Assembly (NCBI GenBank): GCA_023266095.1
Contig: JAHFRV010000037.1
Location: 1-32,093 of the forward strand
Length of the DNA stretch: 32,093 bases
Reading direction: 5' to 3'
DNA from: Gammaproteobacteria bacterium
Lineage (GTDB): Bacteria > Pseudomonadota > Gammaproteobacteria > DRLM01
The position numbers and the translations under genes were made by a program. The stretch's first letter is position 1. Every line of letters starts with the position of its first letter. Positions 5,954-14,771 of the stretch are shown here, in pieces. The notes beneath the pieces were generated by a model that ran no database searches, was not told the DNA's origin, and saw only the letters and a list, made by a program, of their open reading frames with translations.

Positions 5954-6990
5954 TGGCCGTTGATTCCGGCAAACACTGCCAATTTCGTCTTGAATTCGCT
6001 TAGCTTGTCGTCACCGAACACCATGGTCCGCCGCAACAAATAGGGATAGGCGAAAAACCCATTGCCGCCCGGCGTCACGGTGAAGCCCAGCGCCATCCGG
6101 TTATGCTCCATCTGCACGGTGACGGCCTGATTGGCGTCGCCGTAAGGATAGGCGTAAGCGTAGACCTCGCGGCCCAGCCGCTGGCGGATCAGCTCGCCGG
6201 GCTTTTCCATCTCCGTGCGCAGCCGTTGCTGGTACGCGCCGTCACTCTCCTGCGGCAGACGCAGCACCAGATTGGTGTGCGACTTGGAATGAGGCTGGAT
6301 CTCAATCAGCCCGGAGCCGACCATTTCCCGCAGCTGGCTCCAGCTCAGCGCATCGCCCGCGCCGATGAAGTCGCTGTATAAAAACACCGTGGCGGGGAAG
6401 CCGTGTTTTTTCAGGATGGGAAAGGCGAACTCATAGGTCGAGCGATAGCCGTCGTCGAAGGTGATGACCACACTCTTGGCCGGCAGCGGTCCGCGTCCCG
6501 CGAGAAAGTCGCGCAGCATCGGTAATGAAATAACCCGATAACCTTCGCGGGCGAGATAGGCCATCTGCTCGGCGAAATCGCCCGGGCTGACGATCATCTT
6601 GCCGCGGCCTGAGCCGATGCGGTGATAACAAAGAACCGGCACGGTCTGATAGCCGCCCGGGCGGATACCGCCGGGATTCCGCGGACGCAGCGGTATCACC
6701 AGCGACTTGCCGGCTTCGAGGCGCGTGAGGCGGTTGAAGTCGGCGATGATCCAAGCCTGATCGCGGTCGCCGAGGTATTCCGCGGCCAGCGATTCCAAGG
6801 TATCGCGCGGCTGCGTCAGCAACACCACGAAGTCTTGATCCCGCCCCAAGATTTGGCTATGCGTTACAACAGGCGCGGTTTCCGCCGAACGCGACGGCAC
6901 TAGGCCGCAACCATGCAGCCAGAGGCCCAGCGTCAGTACCAGCGCTGCCCGCAGCCACTCAGCTCGGCGAGATATCAGCCTTGGCCTCAT
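5950..6990 (-). CDS. LysM-polysaccharide deacetylase (NodB-fold) lipoprotein
   Basis: This 346-residue protein would remove acetyl groups from a cell-envelope or exported polysaccharide. The signal peptide ends in lipobox LHGC (C28). A LysM-like region follows at about 50-95 (QPRDTLESLAAEYLGDRDQA ... GKSLVIPL). The NodB domain spans about 115-320: VLCYHRI at its start, TFDDGY with the metal-binding Asp pair, and HSKSH for the two metal-binding His. Residues YAYPYG fit the later active-site motif. The ATG at 6990 gives an ideal lipoprotein start and overlaps the kinase 3' end by 32 bp. A longer frame to 7080 would lie inside the kinase gene. Coupling to the upstream kinase and downstream TPR lipoprotein suggests a shared envelope function. 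Confidence 0.85.
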   Translation of the reverse strand: MRPRLISRRAEWLRAALVLTLGLWLHGCGLVPSRSAETAPVVTHSQILGRDQDFVVLLTQPRDTLESLAAEYLGDRDQAWIIADFNRLTRLEAGKSLVIPLRPRNPGGIRPGGYQTVPVLCYHRIGSGRGKMIVSPGDFAEQMAYLAREGYRVISLPMLRDFLAGRGPLPAKSVVITFDDGYRSTYEFAFPILKKHGFPATVFLYSDFIGAGDALSWSQLREMVGSGLIEIQPHSKSHTNLVLRLPQESDGAYQQRLRTEMEKPGELIRQRLGREVYAYAYPYGDANQAVTVQMEHNRMALGFTVTPGGNGFFAYPYLLRRTMVFGDDKLSEFKTKLAVFAGINGQ

Positions 6991-8563
6991 GACGTTGTTG
7001 CAGCGCCTCCGCGGTGGCGTCGAAAGACTGGTACAGTTCACCGAACTCGTCATTGCGCTTGTCCGCAATCCGGTAGTCATAGCGGCCGTTGGCGAGTTCT
7101 TCGAGCGAATCCCGCAACACCCTGATCGGCAATGACAGGCGCTGCGCCAAAAAGTAACTGCCCACCGCTACCGCCAGCAGGGTGACCAGAATCAGCACGC
7201 CGAACAGGACCATGCTCAGCCGCGACAAGGCATTCAACGGCTGTTCTGAAACGCCCAGATGCACACTGCCGATCTCCTTGCCGTGAAACAGCACCGGTGC
7301 GGCGAAGTCGAGCACCTTCCGCCCGTCGCTTACGGCGAAACGGATCACCTTAACACCACTATCCCGCGTCGCCACCGACTTGCCTGCGGGCGGCGTGTAG
7401 TCCGTACCCACCGCGGGTCCACTATTGCTGCCGCGGACCCTACCGCGGTGATCCACCACCACCAGATAATTGAAATTCTGGTGATTGACCGCGTCTTGGA
7501 CGAAGACTTCCACCGCCACATAGTCTTCACCCAGCAGCGGCACCGCATTCTCCGCCGACATGAACTTCACCAGCGATCCCCCGTAGTCGATCAGCTGAGC
7601 CAGCATCGCCTGATACTGCCGCTGATAAATCCAGGTCGCGCTGATCATCATCGTCACCGCCACCAGCCCCACCAAGCTGATCGCCCAGCGCACGCGCAGC
7701 GGTATGGCACGCGGCCTATCCTTGCGGCGCCGGGCATCGTGCAACTCACGGGCGACGCGGATGAGCGCCTCGGCGAATTCCTGACCGCTCTGGAACCGCT
7801 TGTCCGGCTGCTTTTTGAGCGCGCGGCCGATGATGCGCCGCAGGCCGAGCGGCAGATCGGGCCGCAATTTGTCGATCGGCACGGGGTCGGCTTCAACGAT
7901 CTTATAAGCCAGGGTCGCCATGGTATCGCCCTCGAAGGGCCGCGTCCCCGTGAGCAACTGGTATAACACCACACCCGCTGAAAACAGGTCGGAGCGGGGA
8001 TCGACCTTTTGACCGAGTATCTGCTCCGGTGACATATAGTGCGGCGTGCCCAGCACCTGTCCGACATGGGTCTGCTCGGTCACCTCGCCGCCTTCGATGC
8101 GGCAAATACCGAAATCCGCCACTTTGATGGTATTGGTGGCTTTCACCAGCATGATATTGCCGGGCTTGATGTCGCGGTGAACGATACCCTTGCTGTGGGC
8201 ATAATCGAGAGCCCGCGCGAGCTGAATGCCGATATCCACCACATCCCATACCGGCACCGATTGCCCCGTCTTGATGAGGTCGCTGATCTGCATGCCCTCG
8301 ATCAATTCCATCGCGATATAGGGTTGACTGTCGTATTCGCCGACGTCGTAAATCGTCACGATATTGGGATGCGACAGCATGCCGGCCGCCTTCGCCTCAC
8401 GCAGGAAACGCATGCGGTATTCTTCGTCCCGACAGAGTTCCGATTGCAGTAATTTGATGGCGATGGTGCGGTCGATCTCCGGATCGAACGCCCGGTAGAC
8501 GGTCGCCATCGCCCCTGAGCCGATGACTTCGATGATTTTATAACGGCCTACATGATCCATCAT
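6959..8563 (-). CDS. Membrane Ser/Thr protein kinase with periplasmic sensor domain and C-terminal HAMP
   Basis: Residues ~8-270 are a complete PknB-like kinase domain. It has the glycine loop GSGAMATVYRAF, Lys in TIAIKLL, catalytic HRDIKPGN, DFG, and GTPHYMSPEQ in the activation segment. A membrane helix follows at about 297-318. Next come a ~135-residue periplasmic domain that looks Cache/PAS-like (NYLVVVDHRGRVRGSN ... KEIGSVHLGV), a second helix at about 456-478, and a HAMP region (LPIRVLRDSLEELANGRYDY ... DEFGELYQSF) reaching the C-terminus. Kinase and HAMP are both cytosolic. HAMP usually transmits signals to a domain after it, and here nothing follows. The start is ATG 8563 or the next codon. 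It lies 24 bp after the cassette-borne immunity gene and overlaps the LysM-deacetylase gene. Confidence 0.9.
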   Translation of the reverse strand: MMDHVGRYKIIEVIGSGAMATVYRAFDPEIDRTIAIKLLQSELCRDEEYRMRFLREAKAAGMLSHPNIVTIYDVGEYDSQPYIAMELIEGMQISDLIKTGQSVPVWDVVDIGIQLARALDYAHSKGIVHRDIKPGNIMLVKATNTIKVADFGICRIEGGEVTEQTHVGQVLGTPHYMSPEQILGQKVDPRSDLFSAGVVLYQLLTGTRPFEGDTMATLAYKIVEADPVPIDKLRPDLPLGLRRIIGRALKKQPDKRFQSGQEFAEALIRVARELHDARRRKDRPRAIPLRVRWAISLVGLVAVTMMISATWIYQRQYQAMLAQLIDYGGSLVKFMSAENAVPLLGEDYVAVEVFVQDAVNHQNFNYLVVVDHRGRVRGSNSGPAVGTDYTPPAGKSVATRDSGVKVIRFAVSDGRKVLDFAAPVLFHGKEIGSVHLGVSEQPLNALSRLSMVLFGVLILVTLLAVAVGSYFLAQRLSLPIRVLRDSLEELANGRYDYRIADKRNDEFGELYQSFDATAEALQQRHEAKADISPS

Positions 8564-8585
8564 ATCTGACTCGTCGCCATGGCAG

Positions 8586-8634
8586 CGCTAAGCGGCGCGA
8601 CGCCAGGAGCGTCCGCTTGAGCGACATGTTGGGT
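8586..8634 (-). repeat. attC-like recombination site (degenerate right core)
   Basis: On the minus strand: R'' box ACCCAAC (8634-8628, fits RYYYAAC), a 4-bp spacer, then L'' CGCTCAAGCGG (8623-8613). Next come an inner stem GACGC/GCGTC and L' CCGCTTAGCG (8595-8586). L'' and L' pair completely except for one unpaired base, the extrahelical base typical of attC. A canonical R' (GTTGGGT) is missing: the bases that follow are CTGCCATGG. The coding frame of the immunity gene runs into the site and stops at the TAG of L', as is common for cassette genes. Confidence 0.55.
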
Positions 8635-9046
8635 TTGACTGGGTTGTGTGATGATGCAGTATCTCAAAATCTTTCCGCTCCCCGTAGCCGCACACTCCGG
8701 TTTTTTGTATCTTAGCGCCGATCTTTACTTTTCCGTTGCTGGTAACAATAACCGCTGCCAGCTCGGCTCGACAATCCTTGGCTGACTGGACTTGAGATTC
8801 GACCAAAAAAACATAGTCTCCTTGCACAAACTCTAGACGGGGAACATCAGTGCCACTCACCGGAAAAACGACACATTTGCTTTTGTTCTTGAATGGAAAC
8901 TCTTTAATTTCCACGGTTCCGTCTGCGTGTTTTACTTCCAATGAGCAGCTTTCGCGAAGCTTTATATCTTGCTCGAATATACGAAACGCTGTGGCGTGAC
9001 TGGTAGTTGAGATAAGCAGAAATGCGGCAGAAACAAGAAACCTCAT
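8588..9046 (-). CDS. Secreted periplasmic protein, candidate immunity protein for the Tae4-like amidase
   Basis: A 152-residue protein with a clear signal peptide (MRFLVSAAFLLISTTSHATA, cleavage likely after SHA). Its mature chain has several cysteines (in RESCSLEV, KSKCVVF, AKDCRAEL, TGVCGYG) that could form disulfides in the periplasm. The chain looks beta-rich, unlike the helical Tai4 proteins, so it may be a different immunity fold. The ATG at 9046 has GGAGG 7 bp upstream and overlaps the stop of the amidase frame by 4 bp (ATGA). An effector acting on peptidoglycan needs a periplasmic immunity protein, and both location and coupling fit. The last ~15 codons lie inside the attC-like site. 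Similarity to a known family is not recognised. Confidence 0.65.
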   Translation of the reverse strand: MRFLVSAAFLLISTTSHATAFRIFEQDIKLRESCSLEVKHADGTVEIKEFPFKNKSKCVVFPVSGTDVPRLEFVQGDYVFLVESQVQSAKDCRAELAAVIVTSNGKVKIGAKIQKTGVCGYGERKDFEILHHHTTQSNPTCRSSGRSWRRAA

Positions 9047-9479
9047 ATCAACCTCCACATCCAGATTGTTTTGGCGTCCCAATATGCCGCACCTAACTCG
9101 CTCTCGCCATCCCAGAGGTCAATATGCCCCTGCCCAGAAAAGCCTGGAATATTCATGTAGCAGATAATTCCTTTGACACCCCGTATATTTGCGGGAGCAG
9201 AGCCACTTGGCTGGTCAAGCCAGCCATATTCCGCATGCCAAACACGTGCGGGCTGTTAAGTACGGCGGCTAAATCCTGCGCACCGCGCATAAAGCCGTGT
9301 GGACAGACATTGTTCCCGGACTTCGTGAAAGCATTGAGAAATGCTGGGTTAGTTCTTACGAGGGCCTCGCTCATTCTAATGGCGCAAGTATTTGGGAAGT
9401 GCATCGAGCACGAGTGGATTTGGTGCGGTAGTGTTCGATAGTTTAATTTGAGTCTCGAAAAGGTAGGCTTTACAATCAT
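9043..9479 (-). pseudogene. Tae4-like T6SS peptidoglycan amidase effector, interrupted by a frameshift
   Basis: The first frame starts at ATG 9479 (MIVKPTFSRLKLNYRT). It contains FPNTCAIRMSEAL, the Tae4 catalytic-Cys motif (C32), then NVCPHGFMRGAQDLAAVL, but runs to a stop at 9153. A second frame, open from about 9250 to a TGA at 9045-9043, continues the family: RVWHAEYGWLDQ, ANIRGVKGIICYMNIPGFSG and GQGHIDLWDGE with the catalytic His. Joined, they give about 144 residues, normal for Tae4 amidases that cleave the gammaDGlu-mDAP bond. The switch (-1 relative to the first frame) lies around 9235-9255, after AAVLNS. There is no obvious slippery site, so it is a mutation or a sequence error. Its stop overlaps the next gene's start. 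Confidence 0.8.
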
Positions 9480-9628
9480 TTTTCTTCTCTCGTCAAGGGT
9501 TGCTCAACAATGGTTGTGGGATACCGCTACGCAACCCAATATGCCACCCCCCGCATCGTGAAACCAAGACCACCGCGCCTGCCAACTTGCGTGATGAGCA
9601 AGACCTCTCCTGCGTGTGTCGCGCGGCC

Positions 9629-11911
9629 TTAAAACTCAAGGCGTATCCCCAAGTCGATGGTCGAGACGCTCGTGTAATTCTGGCCCAGCACCGTCTGATA
9701 ACTGACAAACGCCGCCTTGCCGCCCGGCAAGGTGGCGGCCAGCGATATGCCCAGGTTCGCATAGTCGCGGTCGGGAGCATCGGTCTGGAGCGTGAACGGC
9801 ACGCTCGGATCTGCCGCGAAGCGCACGCTGAGCGCGCGGGCCCCGTCTTTGTACTGGTGTTCCCAGTCGGCGCTGACGCTGGGCGTGAGCACCCCCCAGG
9901 GCTGACTCAACGCCCATGACACCCGCCCGCCCAGAGCCGTAGTCAGCGAGCGCACGGTCTGTTCCTGGTAAGCCAGCGCCCAACCCGCGCCGCCCTGTTC
10001 AGTATAGCCGTCGACGCGGGTATCGATGTACTCCAGGCGCAGATACGGGCTCAGCAGCAGATTACCGCGGCTGAAGTCGGCGCCGGTATTGACGGTCGCG
10101 CCCCACTGGCTGCTGTCGGTGTCGCCCGAAGCCGAGGTGTTGACGCCGGAGTACACGATAGTGCGCCGGGTGTCGTAACTGTTGCCGCCGTAGTTCACGA
10201 TCCAATCCAAGAAATAGCTGCTGGGCGTGTAGTAACTGCCGTAAAGAGAAGCGGTGAAACCGCGAGTGTCCATGTCACCGCGCCCCGCCGCGAAATCCGA
10301 ACCGGTGGACGAATAGCCCAGGGCGCCGCCCACCACGGTTTGTTTGGTGTAGCGGTAATCCACGCCCAGGGTGAGGCCGCGGGTATCGAAGTCGAATCCC
10401 GCTTGCCGGCTGCTGCTGTCTTGCGTGCCGAAGAGAACCCGGCCATTCACGAACGCACCGAGCCGGCCATCCGCCCATAAAGGCTGTGAAGCACCGTCCC
10501 CTGTTCCACCCTGCGCCATCGCCGCGTCGGCAAGCAGGCCGGCCGGTAATTCCAGGCCGGCGACTTGAATCGACAGGCCGCGCAAACCCAGCCCGGAGCT
10601 ACCGCGGCGCAGGGACTGGATGCGCGCCCTGACATTATTGAGTTGCGCGCCCGTCGACTCCACCGCCAACGTGCCCTGCGCGGCCAGTTGGTCTGGCGTC
10701 AACTGGGCGAGTGCAATGCGTTGCTCACTGACGCTGAGCGACGACAGCGACGCACACTGGCTCTGCAAGGCCGCGCTGTCAGTGCTGTCGCACAAGCGAT
10801 CGATGGCGGCGGCGAGCGAGGCCTGGTTTTCCGTGAGTCCGGGAATCTCCGCCAGCCCGATGGCCGTGGCAGCCGGCACGACCACACTCACCGCCACCGA
10901 GGCCGTCGCGGTGCGTTCGGCGTTGTCGATTACGGTGTAGGAGAAGCGGTCGGGTCCGACGTAACCGGCAGCGGGGGTATAGGTAATCGATGTGCCATTG
11001 TTGATCACCGTCGTACCGTGCGACGGCGCCGTCACCGCGCTGATGCTTAAGGTTTGGTCAGGTGGCGCCAGGTCGTTGTCGAGCACATTCACGGTCACGG
11101 CCTGACCGGCGTTGCTAACGGCGGTGTCATCGGCGGCGATCGGCACACTTGCGACATTCACCGCCACCGAGGCCGTCGCAGTGCGTCCGGCGGTGTCGGT
11201 TACGGTGTAGGAGAAGCGGTCGGGCCCGACATAGCCGGCAGCGGGGGTGTAGGTGATAGTCGTGCCGTCGTTGATGACCGCTGTACCTTGCGACGGCGTC
11301 GTCACCCCGGTGATGCGCAGGGTCCGGCCCGGCGGCGGGGTGTCGTTATCGAGCACGTTGATGGTCACGGCCTGGCCGACATGGGTGGTGACGCTGTCGT
11401 CGGCGGCGACCGGCACGGGCTCGACCACTTGAGTGGTGATGCCGCGGCTGTCGCCGGTGCAGCTACTACCAATACTACTGCACGACACGAGAAAACTCAG
11501 CGCCTGCGTGCCGGCCGGCGGCGTCCAGGAAAACGAATAGGTCTGGGTTTCCCCGAACCCGAGTTGGCCGCAGAAATATCTGCCGTCGAGGTTACACTGA
11601 CCGGGAGCGGGGGTGAACTGAGCACTGATATTGGTATTGCCGCTTTGGATAGTGATTTGCACGAAATCCGGTGTGGTATCGCTCGTGGTGAGAGCGCTGC
11701 GGACCGTGACGTTGTAGCTCACCTCGGCGCCCGGGGTGACATCGTTGGCCGGCGTCTGCGTCAGGCTGACGATCCGCACATCGGCCTGGGCCATGGACAA
11801 CGTCAACCACAGCCCGGCCGCCAACATCACTTGGCGGGTAATCCGCTGTGCGATAAACCCGGCCAGCCGGGCGCAAAACCCCATGTAGGCACGTCCCTTT
11901 ACCGTTTTCAT
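9629..11911 (-). CDS. Autotransporter with two Ig-like repeats and a C-terminal beta-barrel
   Basis: A 760-residue outer-membrane protein. A signal peptide (hydrophobic VMLAAGLWLTLSMAQA) ends near residue 43. Residues ~45-165 resemble a DUF11-like beta domain with paired cysteines. Two near-identical 90-residue Ig/cadherin-like domains follow (~168-257 and 258-347), each with VNVLDND-type and TYTPAAGYVGPDRFSYTV motifs. A helical linker (~350-480) leads to an autotransporter barrel (~490-760) of alternating strands. It ends in IDLGIRLEF with the terminal Phe recognised by the BAM machinery. The ATG at 11911 is chosen because GGGAGGAG lies upstream; a longer frame starts at 11956. It follows the caspase gene, with a cassette between, and is followed by the second cassette and kinase. 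Confidence 0.9.
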   Translation of the reverse strand: MKTVKGRAYMGFCARLAGFIAQRITRQVMLAAGLWLTLSMAQADVRIVSLTQTPANDVTPGAEVSYNVTVRSALTTSDTTPDFVQITIQSGNTNISAQFTPAPGQCNLDGRYFCGQLGFGETQTYSFSWTPPAGTQALSFLVSCSSIGSSCTGDSRGITTQVVEPVPVAADDSVTTHVGQAVTINVLDNDTPPPGRTLRITGVTTPSQGTAVINDGTTITYTPAAGYVGPDRFSYTVTDTAGRTATASVAVNVASVPIAADDTAVSNAGQAVTVNVLDNDLAPPDQTLSISAVTAPSHGTTVINNGTSITYTPAAGYVGPDRFSYTVIDNAERTATASVAVSVVVPAATAIGLAEIPGLTENQASLAAAIDRLCDSTDSAALQSQCASLSSLSVSEQRIALAQLTPDQLAAQGTLAVESTGAQLNNVRARIQSLRRGSSGLGLRGLSIQVAGLELPAGLLADAAMAQGGTGDGASQPLWADGRLGAFVNGRVLFGTQDSSSRQAGFDFDTRGLTLGVDYRYTKQTVVGGALGYSSTGSDFAAGRGDMDTRGFTASLYGSYYTPSSYFLDWIVNYGGNSYDTRRTIVYSGVNTSASGDTDSSQWGATVNTGADFSRGNLLLSPYLRLEYIDTRVDGYTEQGGAGWALAYQEQTVRSLTTALGGRVSWALSQPWGVLTPSVSADWEHQYKDGARALSVRFAADPSVPFTLQTDAPDRDYANLGISLAATLPGGKAAFVSYQTVLGQNYTSVSTIDLGIRLEF
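10871..11410 (-). repeat. Tandem 270-bp coding repeat in the autotransporter
   Basis: Two adjacent 270-bp units (11410-11141 and 11140-10871) encode the two Ig-like domains. Many blocks are identical or nearly so, for example the stretch encoding AAGYVGPDRFSYTV in both. This points to a recent in-frame duplication that could expand or contract by recombination. Confidence 0.8.
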
Positions 11912-11981
11912 GCACGTCTCCTCCCGAAATTGTCGGCGGCGGCCCGCGGTCCGCACCTTGCTGTCACTGCGCGCGCTTCTA

Positions 11982-12047
11982 CGCCGACGCTAAGGCGCCG
12001 GGGGCCGCGTAGCGCCCCCGAGATCGCCCTTGTGCGCGTTGTTAGGG
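11982..12047 (-). repeat. attC-like recombination site
   Basis: On the minus strand: R'' CCCTAAC (12047-12041; only the first base deviates from RYYYAAC) and L'' CGCACAAGGGCG nearby. A central hairpin follows (CGGGGGC 11999-12005 pairs with GCCCCCG 12014-12020). Then come L' CGCCTTAGCG (11997-11988), a 5-bp spacer TCGGC and the cut position G at 11982. The spacing from CTTAGCG to the core G is canonical. The core then reads GTAGAAG instead of GTTRRRY. Confidence 0.6.
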
Positions 12048-12580
12048 GCCCCATAGTGGCGGTGACGAAATTTGGCCAACTCAATGTGGTGCATGGTGCC
12101 TATGCAATAAAACACCAACCCAGATATAAGAACAAACACACCATACCACGACGGCCAACGACACACCGTTGCTAACCCGAGCAGTACCGCTGCAACTCCG
12201 AGACGAGTCTCGAATTGAAAGAACAGCACCACCCGCGAAATGTATGAATTCCGATTATTGGAAAGATCAGAAATATACTTGTTCCATTCCTCTTCAAAAA
12301 CTCCACGGGAAATCTTTAGGTGACATGGAGCGACATAATCAAGCACGAACGTTTCGAGCACGGCCTGAATTGAGGCGACAATAGCGCCCGCAAGAGCAAC
12401 CGCGGCCAACAAAACGAAGGACGCGATGAATTGCGCACTTTCTGCCCACGCAATGATCTCCAAGAGTTGGTACTTTGAAATCCCGTGTGCAACTACCACC
12501 GCCAATACCGCAAGAAAACCTGGAAGCAAGAAGGTAACAAGAATCTCAAAACCGAAATTTGTCGCTTCAGTTTTCATCAT
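11990..12580 (-). CDS. Small four-helix membrane protein, function unknown
   Basis: A 196-residue integral membrane protein with about four hydrophobic segments: residues ~12-32 (LVTFLLPGFLAVLAVVVAHG), ~48-72, ~124-141 and ~145-162. A hydrophilic loop between helices 2 and 3 contains EEEWNKYISDLSNNRNSYIS. I do not recognise a family. The first codons are MMKT, so the start is 12580 or 12577. The gene is AT-richer than its neighbours. It begins 12 bp inside the cassette, and its frame runs into the attC-like site and stops at the TAG of L', so the last ~20 residues (PNNAHKGDLGG...) are encoded by the recombination site and may be non-functional. Nothing in the context tells its role. Confidence 0.7.
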   Translation of the reverse strand: MMKTEATNFGFEILVTFLLPGFLAVLAVVVAHGISKYQLLEIIAWAESAQFIASFVLLAAVALAGAIVASIQAVLETFVLDYVAPCHLKISRGVFEEEWNKYISDLSNNRNSYISRVVLFFQFETRLGVAAVLLGLATVCRWPSWYGVFVLISGLVFYCIGTMHHIELAKFRHRHYGAPNNAHKGDLGGATRPPAP

Positions 12581-12605
12581 GTATCAAGGGTCCCTAACAC
12601 GCGCC

Positions 12606-14615
12606 TCAACGCCCCGCCATGAAAAGAAACTGGCCGGTCTCGTGCCCGGCGCGGCGGATCGGCGCGTATTCGGGTATCTGCGTCACACCGAGGCGCGCCG
12701 CGCGGCTGCGCACACTATCCGTCACCGACTGATAAAGACTATAGCCCTGCAGGATGTCGTGATTGGTTTGCAGAGCGGCGATGAAGGCCTTGGCGAACAC
12801 GGAATTGCGGCCGCCGCCTTCGTCCAGCACCGGCGCCAGACCGCCCGAGGTCAAGGCGGTGCGCGACCGGCTGTGGGCCATCAGCCGCAGCCATTTCTCC
12901 TTGAGCGCCGGCGGCAGCGTCACGTCGAGGCGGGCGATGGAGGTGCGCGTCATGGTGCCGGAGTAACAGGAATCCGCCACCACCATGATGTGGCGGGCAC
13001 GGATGGCGTTGAGCATATCGGTGACGGCATCATTTGACAGCCAGTTGGCCGGATTGGCGGTCTCGGCGTCCACCGGCAGCCAATAACCCTGGCCGCTCGC
13101 CAGATCCAACTCACCGTGCCCGGCATAATAGATCAGCAGATTGTCGTCTTCGCTGAGGCGCTGGCGCAGTTCGTAGAGGGCGGAGATGATCGCGCGGCGA
13201 TCGGCATCCACCAGCACCGTGGTGCTGAAACCATAACGGCCGCGCAGCACCTCCGCCACGCCCTCGGCGTCGTTGATCGCGGTATTGAGTTTGGGCAGAT
13301 ACGTGTAGCTGTTATTGCCGATGATCAGCGCGTGGAAACGCCCGAACGGCACCGCGCCCGCGCGCACCGCGCCGGCCGTCGGGGCGGCGGCGGGCCCGGT
13401 GGCGGGTGTGACGATCACAAACTGAAGCACGGCGCGCCGGCCGCGCTGATCGACCACCACCATGTTCACTTCGGTCTGGGCGGACGTCAGCGGGATCATC
13501 GTGCGGAAGGCGCCATCGTCGGCAACCGGCACGGCCTGCTGGTTGACATTGAACAGCTTGATTCCCGCGGGGGCGGTGATGCGCCCGGCGATCTCACGTT
13601 GTTTGGCGATGGAACGCAAGGTCACACTCGGCACGCCCCGCGTCGCCATCAGCGGCGGGTCGATGAGATCGATGCTGGGGCCGCCCGGTGACTGTTGCGC
13701 CGCCAGCCGCGTGAGTTCACTGCGATATTGGTCGGCCGCGCCTTGGAGACGATCGATGTCGCTCTGCTGCCGCTGCAACTGCGCGTGCCGCTGTTGCAGC
13801 TCCTGGTCCAGCTGTCCGAGGTCCTGAATCTGGGACGCTGACGACGGCTGACGCAGCGCGTCCTTGCGGCGTTGCAACGCCTGGATCTGGCCTTCGAGGG
13901 TTTGCTTTTGCGACCGCGCGTCTTTCAGTTTGCGCCGTGCGTCGGTGAGCTGGCGCTTGAGCGTATCGGTCTGCTCGGTGAGCCGCTCCACTTCGCCGCG
14001 CAGCGTGGTCAGTTCCTGCGCCTGCGTCGCACGGGCCTGCTGCTCCACCGACGACACGAATTCGAGGTCGCCGCTCAAGCCCGAGGCCCGGCGGTACCAA
14101 TTCATCGCCTCGACCAAGTCCGCGGATACACCCAGACCTTTCTCATATAAATAACCGAGGCCGATCTGTGCCCGCGCATAGCCCTGCTCGGCCGCCTTGC
14201 GATACCACTCGGCCGCCAGGACGTAATCCGGCTCGACGCCGAGACCCTGCTCGTAGATCTGGGCCACATAAGTCTGCGCCTCGGGATCACCTTCACGAGC
14301 CTGCGGCAACCATATCTTGAGGGCGGTGGCGTAGTCGGCGCGATCATAGGCCACATATTCACCGCCGCGGATTTCGCAATCGGCGGCAGCGGTCTTTACC
14401 GGCCGGCGCGGTGCCAAATAGGTGAGAGCTTGGCCCAGTTTGCGGACCTGGCCGGGGAGTAGGCAATCGACGATGAGCATCTGCTGGGTGTCCGCCGGCA
14501 CAGCGCCGGCAACACCATCGGCGTCATCGGGACCGGCGACCCTGCTCGGCGCGCAGGCGCTCAGCAGCGCCAGGACACTGCATAACATCACCGTGCATGT
14601 TCGGAAACGCGTCAT
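12606..14615 (-). CDS. Caspase-like (C14) lipoprotein with Sel1 repeats and coiled coil
   Basis: A 669-residue lipoprotein with lipobox LSAC (C21). Two to three Sel1-type repeats lie at about 105-180 (YVAQIYEQGLGVEPDYVLAA, GLGYLYEKGLGVSADLVEAM). A long coiled coil is at about 195-300 (LRGEVERLTEQTDTLKRQLT onward). A beta region is at about 315-400. The C-terminal caspase-fold peptidase spans about 425-665: FHALIIGNNSYTYLPKLNTA, the His in YYAGHGE and the nucleophile Cys in DSCYSG. Both catalytic residues are present, so proteolysis is plausible; the substrate is unknown. ATG 14615 is chosen; a TTG two codons upstream would add MP. It follows the kinase gene by ~155 bp and would contact the autotransporter only after export. 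Confidence 0.85.
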   Translation of the reverse strand: MTRFRTCTVMLCSVLALLSACAPSRVAGPDDADGVAGAVPADTQQMLIVDCLLPGQVRKLGQALTYLAPRRPVKTAAADCEIRGGEYVAYDRADYATALKIWLPQAREGDPEAQTYVAQIYEQGLGVEPDYVLAAEWYRKAAEQGYARAQIGLGYLYEKGLGVSADLVEAMNWYRRASGLSGDLEFVSSVEQQARATQAQELTTLRGEVERLTEQTDTLKRQLTDARRKLKDARSQKQTLEGQIQALQRRKDALRQPSSASQIQDLGQLDQELQQRHAQLQRQQSDIDRLQGAADQYRSELTRLAAQQSPGGPSIDLIDPPLMATRGVPSVTLRSIAKQREIAGRITAPAGIKLFNVNQQAVPVADDGAFRTMIPLTSAQTEVNMVVVDQRGRRAVLQFVIVTPATGPAAAPTAGAVRAGAVPFGRFHALIIGNNSYTYLPKLNTAINDAEGVAEVLRGRYGFSTTVLVDADRRAIISALYELRQRLSEDDNLLIYYAGHGELDLASGQGYWLPVDAETANPANWLSNDAVTDMLNAIRARHIMVVADSCYSGTMTRTSIARLDVTLPPALKEKWLRLMAHSRSRTALTSGGLAPVLDEGGGRNSVFAKAFIAALQTNHDILQGYSLYQSVTDSVRSRAARLGVTQIPEYAPIRRAGHETGQFLFMAGR

Positions 14616-14771
14616 TGGCAACCCACATCAGATTGGCCGTGAGGTCCGGTCCCGGCAACAGCGCTGACTGCACGCGCATTATTTTGGGGAGCGAGTGTTC
14701 ATCTTGCTCCAGTCCCGCGGTCGCTGCAATCTACACAGAATGACCGGCACGGGCGGCGACGCGCCGCGCTG

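Follow-up and report, generated by a model that had tools for sequence, protein, structure and literature searches.

Two single integron-type gene cassettes in one chromosomal operon and their probable insertion at non-att sites

Two single integron-type gene cassettes, here called C1 and C2, occupy intergenic gaps of one chromosomal operon and were quite probably inserted there by an integron integrase at non-att (attG-type) sites. Both lie in the window, meaning the whole stretch of DNA analysed, which is contig C63 with its 32,093 bases and belongs to a source genome (G000) of 3.33 Mb in 110 contigs. Cassette insertion outside integrons has been shown experimentally and in a few plasmids. 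The kind of event is already known, and the novelty lies in a pair that occurs naturally in a chromosome and can be read at both ends, together with a scan that scores the circular form of a cassette. Natural chromosomal examples with readable ends are useful because such cassettes escape any search that needs a pair of attC sites or scores a site in its integrated form alone, and are recovered by scoring the circle, in which the left end of the cassette itself supplies R'. Two cassettes in one operon also suggest that integrons feed ordinary operons with genes, including an effector pair for bacterial competition.

The host operon

The host genes run on the minus strand in the order kinase, caspase, autotransporter, kinase (Table 1), with C1 between the caspase and autotransporter genes and C2 beyond the autotransporter gene, 3.4 kb from the attC site of C1 and in the same operon and orientation. 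The initial annotation had described C1 as a lone cassette, which is not quite right for the operon, where C2 provides a second and stronger cassette end. Base composition sets the cassettes apart, the host genes having 65% GC as against 47.8% in the C1 reading frame outside attC and 48–49% in the C2 genes, and within C1 there is a sharp step from the gene (48%) to the attC site (74%). With the cassettes removed, the caspase–autotransporter gap would measure about 80 bp and the autotransporter–kinase gap about 110 bp, the autotransporter gene likely starting at an ATG at 11911. Both cassettes share the orientation of the host operon, and their genes are probably transcribed from the operon promoter.

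Table 1. Coordinates of the host genes, the two cassettes and their recombination features in the window.
Feature	Position	Strand	Basis or remark
Kinase gene	16283-14772	minus	First of the host operon genes
Caspase-domain gene with Sel1 repeats, host operon	12606..14621	minus	Pfam PF00656, PF08238; 42-45% relatives in G003, G004, G205
Left boundary GTTAGGG	12592..12598	minus	Host base G 12598, then cassette 5' end TTAGGG 12597-12592
Cassette C1, 616 bp, one gene	11982..12597	minus	Both ends, attC model matches, reconstituted attC score
C1 gene, 196 aa, four hydrophobic segments	11990..12580	minus	Translation, hydropathy
attC of C1 minus R' half	11982..12047	minus	Models R1, R2; fold of reconstituted bottom strand
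C1 R'' box CCCTAAC	12047-12041	minus	Sequence
C1 L'' box GCACAAGGG	12035-12027	minus	Sequence
C1 L' box GCCTTAGC	11996-11989	minus	Sequence
C1 core G	11982	minus	Sequence; GC-rich inner hairpin between L'' and L'
Autotransporter gene, host operon	9629..11956	minus	Pfam PF03797; same-module relative in G003, G205
Cassette C2, about 960 bp, two genes	8580..9539	minus	attC model match; 48-49% GC
Frame-broken T6SS Tae4-type amidase effector gene	9049..9476	minus	Tae4 profile match in two frames
152 aa ORF, N-terminal signal-like segment	8588..9046	minus	Position, translation
attC of C2, R'' ACCCAAC 8634-8628, R' lost	8580..8634	minus	R1, R2
Ser/Thr kinase gene (Cache + HAMP), host operon, 3' of C2	6959..8563	minus	Pfam PF00069

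Cassette C1: ends and gene

The left boundary of C1 lies 8 bp past the caspase stop codon. Its cassette portion TTAGGG, and with the host G the whole GTTAGGG, is the exact reverse complement of the R'' box and has the TTRRRY form of a cassette left end. The initial annotation had noted this complementarity, and both motifs are found at the coordinates it gave, as are the L'' and L' boxes, the inner hairpin and the core G. The spacers measure 5 and 6 nt, or 4 and 5 when one more pair is counted into the L stem, which carries an A x A mismatch adjoining the extrahelical C, plus one extra bulge.

The layout is that usual for cassettes, with one gene read towards attC. Its ATG stands 17 nt from the left end and the frame reads through the attC site, which supplies the final codons, to a TAG stop (11992-11990) within L'. 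Judging from its translation, the product is most likely a small inner-membrane protein, in keeping with the unrecognised four-helix membrane protein of the initial annotation; against Pfam it gave a DUF7544 match below threshold (24.7 bits; cut-off 27). No homologues were found in 398 phylum genomes, plasmids, viral contigs or genome contigs searched by pattern, no relative exists elsewhere in the source genome, and nothing notable appeared at E 1e-3 in 55 related genomes. The suggested search for the same unit near integron integrases also came back empty, no copy of C1 in an integron array being found in the source genome, the 55 relatives, the 398 genomes of the phylum, the plasmids or the pattern-searched genome contigs. 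An AlphaFold single-sequence model showed helices only (pLDDT 63, pTM 0.34) and was too poor to use.

The C1 attC site, integrated and circular

For comparison, 324 attC sites, chiefly from Xanthomonadales arrays, were gathered with the pattern CCTAACNNNNCGTTCAAGC, and a diverse subset served to build a pair of covariance models. R1 has complete R boxes, and R2 is made from half sites without R' and also includes attC sites of the source genome and its relatives. Run with these models, the covariance check proposed by the initial annotation places the integrated C1 site second in the window by both (R1 15.2 bits, E 0.067; R2 16.1 bits, E 0.054), but over 1.30 Mb of the source genome the E value rises to about 2.3–2.7. 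There C1 tops a weak tail (R2, E 2.3) in which a 20-nt fragment at 15.3 follows. In an 89.8 kb control sequence just one site scored above C1 (21.4 bits, the following one 13.1), and this site, probably a true attC, comes from another genome, where it adjoins an integrase gene. By itself the integrated C1 site is thus not convincing, being not significant genome-wide, and no Rfam family reached its gathering score anywhere in the window.

The R' box of a cassette is restored only upon joining of both cassette ends. When the C1 sequence from R'' to the core G is joined to TTAGGG, the bottom strand folds into a canonical attC hairpin that pairs the R and L boxes, with −21.6 kcal/mol and z −2.9, one of 200 shuffles being equally good. 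Upon circularisation C1 accordingly has an attC site with R''/R', L''/L', spacers and an extrahelical base. Folded as a single strand, the integrated form is unremarkable (z −0.2 in one fold, −0.4 in another), which reflects the missing R' half. The hairpin was also considered as an intrinsic terminator and rejected, since by eye no T run follows it on either strand.

A pair-aware log-odds score was trained on the collected attC sites, tolerating a one-base insertion in L'' since C1 requires one, with the same tolerance given to the controls. C1 scores 39.6 as a circle, 27.8 as a half site and 15.2 in the integrated form. Six of the seven array attC sites of the source genome score 34.6–55.9, so the C1 circle falls within their range; the seventh, which has a long spacer outside the scheme, was mis-scored at −6.7. 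Outside the arrays, over 1.22 Mb, the top half-site score among 6,360 R''-like motifs is 20.2, and the top composite among the 207 motifs that have a matching left boundary and a bridging open reading frame is 28.7. A permissive scan for stem plus boundary gave 63 candidates in 1.3 Mb, and a boundary match alone is therefore little proof; the C1 attC site exceeds chance only if both cassette ends are used. The identification of a single-gene, 616-bp integron-type cassette is in this way borne out by both ends, the reconstituted fold and the scores.

Cassette C2

The attC site of C2 is well matched in the window (R1 30.5 bits, E 1.1e-5; R2 44.2 bits, E 3.2e-8), its inner stem being nearly identical to array attC sites on contigs C38 and C39, and its core base is A in place of G. 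The left end TTGGGT (9539-9534), about 90 bp past the autotransporter stop, is the exact complement of R'' ACCCAAC. An alternative left end, GTTAGGT at 9097-9091, has a similar pair-aware score but would cut the Tae4-like gene, for which reason the outer end appears preferable.

Tae4-type amidases act on the bacterial cell wall. In C2 the Tae4-like pieces cover profile positions 2–52 and 74–125 (E 4.4e-4 and 2.9e-4, each under the curated cut-off), and the 152 aa reading frame that follows them, which matches no Pfam family, is probably the immunity partner. The arrangement of Tae4-like pieces and then a small open reading frame of secreted type resembles the Tae4/Tai4 pair of type VI secretion systems (Tae4 being Pfam PF14113), from which C2 differs in its broken frame and in a partner outside any Pfam family. 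Among the papers searched, Tae4, integron and gene cassette occurred together in a single one, each term once.

Integrases and arrays in the source genome

Two full-length integron integrases are encoded in the source genome, on C50 at the contig start (484.6 bits) and on C15 (456.9 bits; TIGR02249, cut-off 265), and attC arrays or array ends lie on C15, C38, C39, C60 and C72, mostly near contig ends. The profile search found no integron integrase on C63. The earlier statement that no integrase is nearby is therefore right for the contig, but not for the genome. Models R1 and R2 match no other attC site in the flanks of C1 or C2, and neither cassette adjoins another attC; the absence of attI from the insertion points is judged solely from the lack of intI on the contig. 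In these terms the flank after the right core of C1 is neither attC nor attI, as had been proposed.

At C108:17743-17967, at a contig end, lies the start of a further integron integrase gene (profile positions 3–77) with no further match downstream, which from its sequence appears truncated or broken by the assembly. A single decayed attC-like site on the minus strand of C103 (14284-14355; R1 25.0 bits, R2 27.4) is possibly another scattered cassette.

Relatives and the insertion points

Six genomes represent the order, and close relatives of the caspase gene within it occur only in G003 and G004 (42–43%), where a kinase gene, a relative of that at 6959..8563, stands directly 3' of the caspase relative at 55–125 bp, in place of the caspase–autotransporter order. 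In G003 the relative of the autotransporter gene lies close to the caspase gene in divergent orientation, and in G205 it lies beyond the kinase. The kinase–caspase–autotransporter module is kept in distant genomes (contig C72 of G205, contig C62 of G003), with differing gene orders. The autotransporter gene was also considered as a third cassette and rejected, as no attC match lies at its end and its relatives stand within the same module elsewhere.

The comparison of the locus in relatives that the initial annotation had proposed thus found the caspase gene but not an uninterrupted caspase–autotransporter junction: none was seen among the six genomes of the order, of which only G003 and G004 are comparable, with another gene order. 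Since the module is conserved and its order is not, an insertion is not readable from this comparison. When the flanks are rejoined, the C1 target is GTG/TAGAAG with core GTA (reading GTAGAAG) and the C2 target is ATA/TGG with core ATG, neither core fitting GNT. If the C1 target has lost one T, its original core would have been a proper GTTAGAA, and nothing indicates such a loss. Integrase recognition requires little beyond GNT (the IntI1 motif), and off-target use is known (PMC10127599). Secondary-site insertion, as put forward by the initial annotation, stands as the best reading, as a probable event.

Origin of the two cassettes

Recombination by an integron integrase acts on the bottom strand of attC in its folded form (PMC11023631). 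C1 would have arrived as a free circle, and an integrase encoded elsewhere in the same genome would have folded the bottom strand of its attC into a hairpin and recombined this with a non-att site in the caspase–autotransporter gap, leaving TTAGGG on one side and attC minus its R' half on the other. C2 would have entered the gap 3' of the autotransporter gene likewise, one cassette being placed each time, and in this manner single cassettes have probably been spread beyond the arrays by the integron machinery of the source genome. The perfect pairing of TTAGGG with R'' in C1, the circle that beats all 207 candidates and the strong C2 attC site in the same operon speak for insertion, as do the fold of the reconstituted C1 site, the low GC content of the cassette genes, the integrases and arrays of the genome, and the absence of an adjoining attC at either cassette. 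Against it stand the cores off GNT in both cassettes, the last base of C2 being A and not G, the want of an uninterrupted junction among the genomes compared, the L-stem mismatch and extra bulge of C1, and the integrated C1 site that is not significant genome-wide. The non-GNT cores and the terminal A require, under insertion, later mutation or another integrase preference. A broader proposal, that the integrase of this lineage places single cassettes at non-GNT cores, with the kinase–caspase–autotransporter–kinase operon serving repeatedly as an expression platform and naturally scattered cassettes being a regular but overlooked component of such genomes, is quite unlikely.

C1 and C2 might instead descend from an older cassette array (CALIN) in which they, perhaps with others, were once grouped or lay close to an integron, until a rearrangement interposed the autotransporter gene and removed the rest. 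Arrays without an adjoining integrase are common (PMC12444791), the module's gene order differs among G000, G003 and G205, so that the region was rearranged, and R' has decayed in both attC sites and could in C1 be GTTAGAA minus one base. Such a descent is nonetheless unlikely, as the end of the autotransporter gene has no attC-model match, this gene and the caspase gene share one module in both G003 and G205, and each cassette fits tightly between host genes, as in the 8 bp at the left end of C1. It is very unlikely that C1 is no cassette but an ordinary gene of the chromosome with a GC-rich 3' end that resembles attC by chance, even with an integrated site of just 15–16 bits (E 2.3–2.7 over 1.30 Mb) and with 2.6% of R''-like motifs having a chance left boundary and bridging open reading frame, given that no candidate in the genome matches the half-site and composite scores of C1, that C2 has a strong cassette end 3.4 kb off, that the GC content jumps abruptly between gene and attC, and that the gene has no relatives in the 398 phylum genomes, the species genome collection searched by pattern or plasmids.

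Relation to known systems

Integron cassettes enter bacterial chromosomes at attG sites, as reportedly described by Loot et al. in 2024 (Nat Microbiol 9:228; cited in PMC11023631, PMC12444791 and PMC12901181). Like those insertions, C1 and C2 are single, lie outside attI and attC in a genome with an integrase, and have a TTRRRY left end and an attC site minus R'; unlike those experimental insertions, they are natural and apparently old, their cores GTA and ATG are off GNT, and the integrase is of another lineage. Recchia and Hall (1995), cited in PMC10127599, described a case in plasmid pIE723 / RSF1010, where the aadB cassette occupies a secondary site. C1 is likewise one cassette placed precisely at a non-att site, differing in that the aadB case involves a plasmid, a resistance gene and a known target, and C1 a chromosome and an unrecognised membrane protein. 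IntegronFinder 2.0 recognises attC sites without an adjoining intI, of which a single one may be a true positive (PMC9024848); C1 and C2 are in contrast separated by a host gene and not clustered, and C1 would likely escape notice under the default of two or more attC sites, given also its weak score in integrated form.

Four further attC-like sites of the source genome (C38:39672, C39:8156, C92:77674 and C29:515) have R' followed by a common CGTTGAG[G/C]CTGTAGAAA. Ends resembling those of insertion elements lie downstream of them, two sharing 94% over 444 bases and the other two differing, and these elements possibly target the attC core.
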